Assembly: GCF_006546735.2 (NCBI RefSeq)
Contig: NZ_VICD02000304.1
Location: 1-64,000 of the forward strand
Direction of reading: 5' to 3'
Source: Marilutibacter maris
GTDB lineage: Bacteria; Pseudomonadota; Gammaproteobacteria; Xanthomonadales; Xanthomonadaceae
DNA: 64,000 nt
The notes beneath the pieces were generated by a model. That model was not told where the DNA came from and did no database searches. It saw nothing but the letters and a program-made list of their open reading frames with translations. Numbering within the stretch: position 1 is the first letter of the stretch; each line of letters begins with the position of its first letter. This document shows, piece after piece, positions 15,744-56,482 of the stretch. The translations under genes were made by a program, and so were the position numbers.

Positions 15744-16772
15744 ATGTCCCAAGACACCGCCCGCCGCATCGTGCTCGCCGCCCATCCGCGCGGTCTGCCG
15801 ACCGCACAGGACTTCCGCCTGGAGGAGGTGCCGATGCCGGCGCCGGACGAGGGCCAGGTGCTGCTGAGCACGCTGTACCTGTCGCTGGATCCCTACATGC
15901 GCAACCTGATGGACAAGGTCGGGCCGGTCTACGCCGAGGCGGTCAGGCTCGGTGCGCCGATGGTCGGCGGCACGGTCGGCCGTGTCGTGGCCTCGCGCCA
16001 CCCGGGGTTCCAGGCCGGTGAACTCGTGCTCGGCAATGCGGGTTGGCAGAGCCATGCGCTGTCCGACGGTTCCGACCTGGTCCGGCTGGGCGATGTCGAA
16101 CAGCCGTCGCTGGCCCTGGGCGGGCTCGGCATGCCCGGTTTCACCGCCTATGTCGGCCTGCTCGACATCGGTCGGCCACGGCCGGGCGATACCGTGGTCG
16201 TGGCGGCGGCCAGCGGCGCGGTCGGCTCGGTGGTCGGGCAATTGGCCAAGCTCAAGGGGGCTCGGGCGATCGGCATTGCGAGTGGGGTGGACAAGTGCCG
16301 CCAGGTGGTCGAGGAGTTGGGTTTCGATGCCTGCCTGGACCGTCGCGAACCCGATCTGGCCGCGCGCCTGGCGGCGGTCTGTCCGGACGGCATCGACGTG
16401 TACTTCGAGAATGTCGGCGGCGAAGTGTTCGACGCGGTGCTGCCGCTGTTGAACATCGGCGCGCGGATGCCGGTGTGCGGCGTGATCGCGCACTACAACG
16501 ACGAAGCGCCGCCGGCCGGCCCCGACCGGCTCCCGGGCGCGATGGCGGCGATCCTGCAAAAGCGCATCCGGGTGCAGGGTTTCGTGATCCTCGACCACTA
16601 TGCCGACCGCTACGATGCCTTCCGCCGCGAGATGGGGCAGTGGGTCGCCGAAGGCCGGATCAAGTTGCGCGAGGACGTGGTCGAGGGGCTGGAAGCGGCG
16701 CCGGAGGCCTTCATTGGCCTGCTGCAGGGGCGCAACCACGGCAAGCTGGTGGTACGGGTCGCGGCCGACTGA
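15744..16772 (+). CDS. curA: NADPH-dependent alkenal/curcumin reductase-like oxidoreductase
   Basis: This 342-residue member of the medium-chain dehydrogenase superfamily belongs to the zinc-free PTGR/leukotriene-dehydrogenase branch that reduces alpha,beta-unsaturated carbonyls with NADPH. Blocks like E. coli CurA are visible: FRLEEVPMPAPDEGQVLL, YLSLDPYMRNLM near residue 55, the nucleotide-binding AAASGAVGSVVGQLAK near 155-170, ENVGGE near 220 and FVILDHYADR near 280. ATG 15744 follows AAAGGAG. With the TetR regulator and its duplicated operator upstream, induction by reactive electrophiles is likely. CurA is the nearest named relative; substrate specificity is not readable from sequence. 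Confidence 0.85.
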   Translation: MSQDTARRIVLAAHPRGLPTAQDFRLEEVPMPAPDEGQVLLSTLYLSLDPYMRNLMDKVGPVYAEAVRLGAPMVGGTVGRVVASRHPGFQAGELVLGNAGWQSHALSDGSDLVRLGDVEQPSLALGGLGMPGFTAYVGLLDIGRPRPGDTVVVAAASGAVGSVVGQLAKLKGARAIGIASGVDKCRQVVEELGFDACLDRREPDLAARLAAVCPDGIDVYFENVGGEVFDAVLPLLNIGARMPVCGVIAHYNDEAPPAGPDRLPGAMAAILQKRIRVQGFVILDHYADRYDAFRREMGQWVAEGRIKLREDVVEGLEAAPEAFIGLLQGRNHGKLVVRVAAD

Positions 16773-16845
16773 GCGATGGCAGAGCAGGGGCGCTTTCCGC
16801 TGGAAGGTCGCTCCTGCCTTTGACTCAAGGGCCGTCGACCATGTC

Positions 16846-17190
16846 GTAGGCGCGGCGTGAGGCGCGATCCCCGGGCTGCGCGCCCGGGAATCCCCAAAGT
16901 TTGCTTCCGCAAACCCTGGGCCCCGCCGTTGCGCTCCCACACCCCCATTCGCGCTGCGCGCGAATCGCCCCCTAACTTAGGGGGGAACGATATCCGGCTA
17001 CGCCCGGATATCTCCCAAAATTTGCTTCGCAAACCCTGGGCCCCGCCGTTGCGCTGCCACACCCCCATTCGCGCTGCGCGCGAATCGCCCCCTAACTTAG
17101 GGGGCTGGGGCCGTCGACCATGCCGTAGGAGCGGCGTGAGCCGCGAGGGGCTTTTTGCGGCAAGGCCCATCGCGGCTTGTGCCGCGCTGG
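16846..17190. repeat. Intergenic repeat cluster: two tandem copies of a four-hairpin element flanked by short palindromic units
   Basis: The whole 16773-17281 gap lacks a gene. Copy 1 (16869-16985) and copy 2 (16989-17104) run in tandem with an exact 120-base period; bases 16911-16980 and 17031-17100 differ at a single position. Each copy has four hairpins in order: stem 1 (CCCGGG...CCCGGG in copy 1, ATATCCGG...CCGGATAT in copy 2), TTTGC...GCAAA, ATTCGCGC...GCGCGAAT and CCCCCTAA...TTAGGGGG. Before and after sit short palindromes (16846-16867 and 17125-17146, core GCGGC-GTGA-GCCGC), followed by an inverted relative near 17170. Confidence 0.9.
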
Positions 17191-17281
17191 CGAAAAACCC
17201 GCGGCCCTCGGCCCCGTACAATGGCCGGTCAGCCGTGGTCAGACGGCACACGAAGCGCCATCGTTTGAGAAGAGCCACCGC

Positions 17282-19476
<2,195 letters not shown>

Positions 19477-23110: not shown

Positions 23111-23162
23111 GTTGCCGATCGGTCGGAGGGGGCCGTGCCGCGCGCAGGTCGCGTTGTCACTA

Positions 23163-23515
23163 CGCGCGAATCGCCCCCTGACTCGGGGGGAGGCGGACGA
23201 AGCTCTTCGTAGGGGCGGCGTGAGCCGCGATGGGCTTTCGCGGAAAACCCGGTCGCAGCTTACGCAGCTCCTACAGAAGCGATGGCCTTCTCACGTAGGA
23301 ACGGCGTGAGCCGCGACCCCCGGGCTGCGCCCGGATATATCCCAAAGTCTGCTGCGCAAACCATGCGCCCCGCCGTTGCGCGGCCAGACCCCATTCGCGC
23401 GACGCGCGAATCGGGCTCGGGTCAGGGGCGGGCGAAAGCTCTTCGTAGCAGCGGCGCAAGCCGCGATTGGGCTTTCATGGGAAGGCTTCATCGCGGCTTG
23501 TGCCGCTCCCGTAGG
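23163..23515. repeat. Second intergenic repeat cluster between secF and suhB
   Basis: The gene-free stretch 23111-23531 is mostly repeats. A fragment of the four-hairpin element (last two hairpins, 23163-23190) is followed by short palindromic units at 23209-23230 and 23295-23316, a diverged full four-hairpin copy at about 23317-23427, and another short unit at 23445-23466 with an inverted partner near 23488-23510. The short units share the frame GTAGGAGCGGC-GTGA-GCCGCGA with scattered substitutions. No coding region is supported here. Confidence 0.85.
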
Positions 23516-56195: not shown

Positions 56196-56366
56196 GCCCC
56201 CTGAGTCAGGGGGCGATTCGCGCCTCAGGTGCGAATCAGAAGAAAGCATGTGGCGCGTAGCGCGAATGGGGGTGTGGAGACGCAACGGCGGGGCCCAAGG
56301 TTTGCGAAGCAAACTTTGGGGATTCCCGGGCGCAGCCCGGGGATCGCGGCTTACGCCGCTCCTACG
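56196..56366 (-). repeat. Inverted copy of the four-hairpin intergenic element
   Basis: A complete copy in the opposite orientation: CCCCCTGAGTCAGGGGG (56197-56213), then a lengthened ATTCGCGC hairpin, GGTTTGCGAAGCAAACTTT, TCCCGGGCGCAGCCCGGGGA, and the short palindromic unit (56344-56365) directly after. The gap 56114-56482 otherwise contains only a 7-base tandem repeat described separately. Confidence 0.88.
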
Positions 56367-56443
56367 AGGCTTTCGCCGTCTCGTCCCCGAGACCGGCACC
56401 GGCCCCGGATGCGTCCTTCGGGCTTGCCCGGGCTACGCTCCGC

Positions 56444-56478
56444 GAGTCCCGAGTCCCGAGTCCCGAGTCCCGAGTCCC
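56444..56478. repeat. 7-bp tandem repeat GAGTCCC, five copies
   Basis: GAGTCCC repeats five times without error, four bases beyond the stop of the thioredoxin-like gene. The unit is not a multiple of three and lies outside coding sequence. Confidence 0.95.
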
Positions 56479-56482
56479 GGTT

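Follow-up and report, generated by a model that had tools for sequence, protein, structure and literature searches.

Members of the Xanthomonadaceae/Lysobacteraceae carry a family of interspersed elements of ~117 nt, each built of four hairpins in a fixed order with a conserved unpaired linker and, mostly, a final CT; a given site may be filled in one related species and empty in another. As judged by sequence comparison, the four-hairpin fold is maintained across the family. We give about an even chance to the reading that the element is non-autonomous, structured and BOX-like in build, and that it was probably spread in the present genome by a resident REP transposase. The window analysed here is a stretch of 64,000 nt on contig 287 of a 4.16-Mb draft genome.

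Two four-hairpin units of 117–120 nt each lie in tandem across positions 16846–17146 of the window. A repeat search of the window recovered them as a 104-nt family (16881–16984 and 17001–17104) with a spacing of 120 and 89% identity, in agreement with the initial annotation of this DNA, which had described a tandem four-hairpin element of period 120. The array, all of it on the plus strand, opens with a GTAG REP (16846–16867; two mismatches to GTAGGAGCGGCGTGAGCCGCGA) that adjoins a unit of type A (16866–16984), in which hairpin 1 (16866–16892) and hairpin 2 (16893–16920) are followed by the linker, hairpin 3 (16947–16965) and hairpin 4 (16968–16984). A GAAC junction (16985–16988) leads into a unit of type B (16989–17104; hairpins 1 to 4 at 16989–17012, 17014–17040, 17067–17085 and 17088–17104). 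A CT dinucleotide and spacer, together 20 nt (17105–17124), then precede a perfect GTAG REP (17125–17146) in the same direction as the first, and the GGGCCGTCGACCATG stretch of this spacer is present also ahead of the first REP. Whether treated as DNA or RNA, and on either strand, each tandem unit folds better than every one of 200 dinucleotide shuffles. No Rfam family matched the window above its gathering threshold, the best sub-threshold match having an E value of 0.25.

The three further copies that had been proposed were recovered by profile search. A fragment comprising a hairpin 3 arm and hairpin 4 lies at 23157–23189 (plus strand), and a diverged A-type unit at 23317–23427 (plus strand; profile positions 7–103 match 23321–23417) has an adjoining REP on its 5′ side (23295–23316, plus) and is followed by another (23445–23466, plus). 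Between the fragment and this unit sits an inverted REP doublet (23209–23230, plus; 23253–23274, minus). The third copy is an inverted A unit (56197–56345, minus strand; matching pieces 56344–56253 and 56236–56197) whose hairpin 3 is split by 16 nt and which adjoins a REP at 56344–56365 (minus). Each of the three is near or beside the same GTAG REP type, and the REPs bounding all of these arrays had been overlooked in the initial annotation. A doubled hairpin 3, interrupted by a short stretch (CACATGCTTTCTTCTG, for example), is a variant of the A unit seen in the window at 56236–56253 and also at loci L146, L047, L157, L090, L111 and L112 of this genome and its relative G003. The inverted partner at 23253–23274 has a T.T mismatch in its stem (GCTGC..GCTGC), as it does at several other loci, so the two REPs of the doublet differ in type. 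A short tandem repeat of CCCGAGT occupies 56441–56479.

Both repeats are abundant in this genome. A BLAST search of its own genome with the 301-nt stretch of the window gave at least 62 matches (228 candidates, 40 of them scored), a 22-nt core of the unit was matched 154 times at ≤3 mismatches (control 2), and the GTAG REP was found in 364 copies at ≤2 mismatches (control 0). These 22-nt repeats have the GTAG tag beside a short palindrome and the high copy number of GTAG REPs. Over the loci covered, the commonest order is REP, A, then GAAC and B repeated zero to two times, a spacer of ~11–43 nt and a REP in the same direction; a further inverted REP is often found 19–28 nt beyond the closing one. 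B can also come first, with or without an inverted REP ahead of it, as in 15 of the 61 blocks that no contig end interrupts. Among 79 blocks, some of them cut by contig ends, 45 hold one unit, 28 two and six three. In one set of loci, 15 blocks have a REP on both sides, in direct orientation in 11 and inverted in four (L029, L032, L033 and L049). Many units lie at contig ends, so the arrays probably break the assembly.

Module A is defined by a CCCGGG stem 1 and module B by a ATATCCGG stem 1, and the two differ in position. When counted at ≤7 mismatches over A units with upstream sequence, four units cut by contig ends being left out, a REP directly adjoins 38 of 46 A units in this genome, whereas the counts for B units and for random positions are one of 61 and 17 of 5000; in the relatives G003 and G005, the figures for A units are 17 of 26 and one of 9. 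This bears on the first stem of the window array, where the initial annotation had noted that both arms changed together (GATCCCCGGGC/GCCCGGGAATC in unit A, GATATCCGG/CCGGATATC in unit B) and had taken the change as a sign that folding is selected. The arms do differ as described, but the difference is explained by two module types bound largely to position and is weak as evidence for selection. Since stem-1 variants are module types and chimaeric stem-1 forms exist (at L042 and L146), recombination between repeats, which the annotation had itself raised as a caveat, applies to this stem.

Relatives within the genus add to the picture. G003 carries 44 unit cores (control 1), and G003 and G005 contribute further unit types, such as a C type whose stems read ACCAAGC/GCTTGGT and AACCTGC/GCAGGTT. 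The site of the window array is empty in G003, where the same two genes lie 112 nt apart without REP or unit. In G005 and in other genera the unit is conserved alone, without these REPs, and tandem arrays are present in other genera too. A covariance model built from 41 units gave matches at E 1e-5 or better in 158 of the family's 247 genomes, or 35 of 54 when tallied by genus. In the order, 17 of 121 genomes matched, three of which (G033, G293 and G294) are outside the family. In a sample of the class, three of 229 genomes matched, all in the family, this genome included, and none outside it. Among the matches listed, all span the full model.

Comparison across genera supports maintenance of the fold. 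In an alignment of 71 matches from many genera, the last seven rows being weak opposite-strand matches, both sides had changed in 36 of the 38 pairs, with a covariation score of 0.433 (0.124 shuffled, ≤0.084 for slid versions) and pairing in 94.5% of cells (75.8% shuffled). Two alignments, this one included, were fitted to the covariance model and so lean towards its structure. Folding of single, unfitted sequences, for which the best 64 matches were used, gave a median z of −4.3 against dinucleotide shuffles, with 59 of 64 below −2. The stems are locus-specific, hairpin 1 most of all except for two pairs beside its loop. Relatives share, for the most part, the sequence of the linker (GGGCCCC...TTCCA.ACCCC) and of hairpin 4. 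For three species of the genus, both-side changes occurred in 16 of 38 pairs versus 12.1 in shuffles, at a score of 0.185 (0.103 shuffled, ≤0.100 slid); the number of pair types, 26, was below the shuffled 32.4. Over 95 units of this genome, the signal was concentrated in hairpin 3, where pairs 99–109, 100–108 and 101–107 showed 18, 33 and 31 both-side changes, with hardly any covariation in hairpins 2 and 4. Against shuffles of these 95 units, both-side cells (86 vs 28) and score (0.097 vs 0.060) were raised, while pairs changed on both sides (5 vs 3.9) and pair types (16 vs 16.7) were not above the shuffled values.

The same was seen at a single orthologous site. In the gap between two genes that, from a reading of the flanks, we take to be dnaA and rpmH, the element is present in eight of 12 species of one genus, and the other four gave no model match at E 0.1. 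Across these eight, which are the best eight of 12 aligned rows (the remainder being weak opposite-strand matches), 92% of cells pair and eight of 38 pairs (26 cells) have changed on both sides, a level reached by none of 1000 shuffles and compared with at most four such cells in slid versions. Since the site is orthologous, the same copy changed both arms, which answers the caveat on unrelated repeats here. The suggestion in the initial annotation that the fold is selected therefore stands in part: its maintenance is supported within this genome, across genera and at the orthologous site, but selection on it is not proven, since DNA-level correction of palindromes would also yield paired changes. 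In this genus (g58; L257–L265) the element lies directly 3′ of a TCCACAGG box in the eight species, in a gap where we would expect the origin of replication.

Mismatches in the stems were also skewed. A.C exceeded G.T mismatches in this genome (171 v 19), in G003 (71 v 20) and in G005 (36 v 4); across genera, counted in the best 64 matches, hairpin 1 was balanced (19 v 18) and hairpin 2 was not (44 v 3). An A.C excess would favour folding of the minus strand, but a few columns of the linker are skewed in the same way, and hairpin 1 is balanced across genera where hairpin 2 is not. Strand-specific folding as read from mismatch types was therefore rejected, and we make no claim as to which strand folds.

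The position of the element relative to genes raises an alternative account, in which it is a putative cis-acting RNA at mRNA 3′ ends: hairpin 1 would include the stop codon, the row of hairpins would slow the terminating ribosome, block 3′ exonucleases or set the transcript end, and hosts would keep the element, which would produce the paired changes. In its favour, with genes called confidently by a codon score trained on this window, of the 27 loci where a confident gene reads into the 5′ end, 23 have its stop codon no more than 20 nt away, as against three of 21 at the 3′ end (Fisher p 1.1e-6). These counts come from 51 loci of other genera, taken mainly from the top of the family match list; several belong to a single genus and four to a single orthologous site, and hence they are not independent. 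From this set L198 was left out, L179 (from G001) is inside the genus, and 24 of the 51 have no confident gene into the 5′ end. Eighteen of the 23 stops overlap hairpin 1, and TGA (15), TAG (6) and TAA (2) are all used, so the register is to the stop and not to one DNA word. At L206 the 5′ arm of hairpin 1 is formed by the gene's last codons, and at L213 and L223, where near-identical peptide ends carry different stops (TAA, TGA), the facing arm pairs with each. Among the peptide ends at element loci are those of what we recognise as purH, slyD, ffh, tgt and smpB. The same trend holds within the genus (genes called by the same codon score, window's own three blocks left out), with stops within 20 nt on the 5′ side in seven of 8 cases in G005 and 10 of 16 in G003, compared with one of 6 and one of 19 on the 3′ side. 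In E. coli, REPs less than 16 nt from a stop codon lower translation, as reported in PMC12306157. Several observations weigh against a cis-acting RNA. On the sense strand, G.U is not favoured over A.C (33 v 71 across genera, 19 v 171 in this genome). Confident genes flank both sides of 53 of 82 blocks in the three species of the genus, with 24 convergent, 25 co-directional and four divergent pairs, and between the co-directional genes the element is in sense in 14 and antisense in 11 (p 0.69); a sense-strand bias was accordingly rejected for the genus, and the figures in other genera are 15 and 8. In this genome only five of 37 stops on the 5′ side fall within 20 nt (one of 38 on the 3′ side), which we take to mean that copies embedded among REPs have moved away from the stop codon. 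No terminator-like site (a stem followed by a T-run) was found in 16700–17400. At the end of ffh, the sole gene surveyed, one of 30 further genomes gave a clear match (30 loci kept from 60 genomes searched) and 29 did not; three other loci carry the element at ffh. Fixation of the element at ffh was thus rejected, and it follows that gain or loss of sites is frequent. Weighing these points, we regard the cis-acting RNA as a serious possibility that falls well short of even.

Paired changes could also come about through correction of DNA palindromes, in which template switching during replication perfects the arms without selection on the fold. The symmetric mismatches of hairpin 1 across genera (A.C 19, G.T 18) are what such a strand-blind process would give, and in many stems the arms are peculiar to the locus yet form an almost perfect palindrome. 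Correction of this kind leaves unexplained the conserved unpaired linker and the fixed hairpin order over many genera, the polarity towards stop codons, and an A.C mismatch that 65 of this genome's 95 units keep at one hairpin 2 pair, and we consider it improbable. An ordinary REP/BIME mosaic with filler sequence would fit the REPs that bound most arrays in this genome, but the unit is conserved by itself in G005 and other genera; as a full account the mosaic is refuted by the family-wide matches and the loci of other genera, and we hold it to be very improbable.

Our preferred reading, a non-autonomous structured element spread here with the help of a REP transposase, draws on the resident RAYT, a kind of transposase that the initial annotation had proposed to look for and that is present, among REPs and beside one copy of the element. 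Pfam identifies two Y1 proteins in this genome. One, a RAYT of 157 aa on contig 130 (L010, 203–676, plus strand), scores 134 bits against NF047646 (cut-off 80), the second 69.9, below the cut-off. The contig 130 gene is flanked by REP doublets, as is the RAYT gene of GTAG REP systems, some of the flanking REPs having 3–5 mismatches. Just downstream of it lies a REP-A-spacer-REP block, giving a REPtron that carries the composite unit. Of 53 relatives, 37 have a CT directly after hairpin 4, and nine have CTTT there; in E. coli and S. maltophilia, TnpAREP is described as cleaving single strands of DNA at a CT beside the REP (PMC8266576). Genome G004 has three consecutive Y1 transposase genes within 4 kb (L161, contig 13, 3195–6860).

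Under this preferred reading, the fold would be kept because copying or cutting takes place on the single-stranded folded form. The RAYT of this genome, as an HUH transposase that works on single strands, would act on the bounding REPs and carry the unit to new sites; slippage or recombination between near-identical hairpins may then generate the tandem arrays, and copies would survive chiefly at gene ends, where insertion is presumably least harmful. That the contig 130 RAYT moves the unit is our inference from sequence. On this evidence it cannot be the general mover, since G003 has no Y1 transposase by Pfam despite its unit cores, only 17 of 26 A units in G003 and one of 9 in G005 adjoin this REP, and the flanks shown for other genera place the start of most units at a gene rather than at this REP. 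No base is conserved in the 5′ flank at the relatives' loci, so there is no fixed target sequence. MITEs are marked by terminal inverted repeats and a target-site duplication; here the empty sites are too diverged for such a duplication to be read. Against the reading as a whole stands the polar position of the stop codon, which exceeds what survival at gene ends predicts.

A broader proposal, which we put forward tentatively and think rather unlikely, takes this position as its starting point: a family-wide structured RNA/DNA element would take the stop codon into hairpin 1 and be passed from gene to gene in that register, with hairpin 1 re-evolving to pair with each gene end. Either insertion would sense translation termination or mRNA 3′ ends, or hosts would keep the element as a shared 3′-end device. 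The stop-codon register is the feature most worth testing. With most short palindromic repeats it is hard to ask whether it is the fold or the sequence that is preserved. In this case many genera share the four-hairpin layout over differing stems, paired changes occur at an orthologous site and a stop-codon register is frequent, so that the choice between a selected fold, a mobile parasite and DNA correction becomes an answerable question. In one lineage, a REP system seems to have taken up a structured element and multiplied it, and the family would be a new candidate entry for libraries of RNAs and of repeats. No paper was found with a match to the hairpin 4 sequence in literature text, nor any description of the element as far as titles and the openings of abstracts tell.

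By description, the unit resembles ERIC/IRU and NEMIS, palindromic intergenic repeats of ~100–150 nt that often lie in 3′ untranslated regions, in its size, palindromes and 3′ placement. The REPs themselves are like the GTAG REPs/SMAG in the sections of Di Nocera 2013 (PMC3733652) on GTAG REPs and RAYTs: 22-nt repeats with a GTAG tag and a short palindrome, in hundreds of copies, with inverted doublets and a RAYT inside a REP cluster. Those sections also report clustered GTAG-1 repeats in X. campestris and, in Pseudomonas, REPs joined to unrelated stem-loops; they describe no four-hairpin unit, and the words Lysobacter and Xanthomonas are absent from the text of the paper. Unlike a REP, which has 20–40 nt and a GTAG or CGTC tag, the unit has 117 nt, four hairpins and no tag, and in relatives it is found apart from these REPs. 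It shares with REPINs, in the part of Bertels and Rainey 2011 (PMC3116915) considered here, a link to RAYTs, hairpin formation, reported compensatory changes and tandem clusters; the REPIN, however, is a single hairpin of two inverted REPs, whereas our unit has four hairpins of its own and lies mostly between direct REPs, as the orientation of the two-sided blocks shows. The pneumococcal BOX element (PMC3049150) resembles it by description in being modular, with an end module, a variable tandem middle and a second end module, foldable and near genes; the portion of that report used here makes no mention of a stop-codon register for BOX. In the arrays of this genome A is mostly first where present and B repeats, but some blocks start with B. 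The unit, itself neither a REP nor a REPIN, works like a BOX-type modular repeat.
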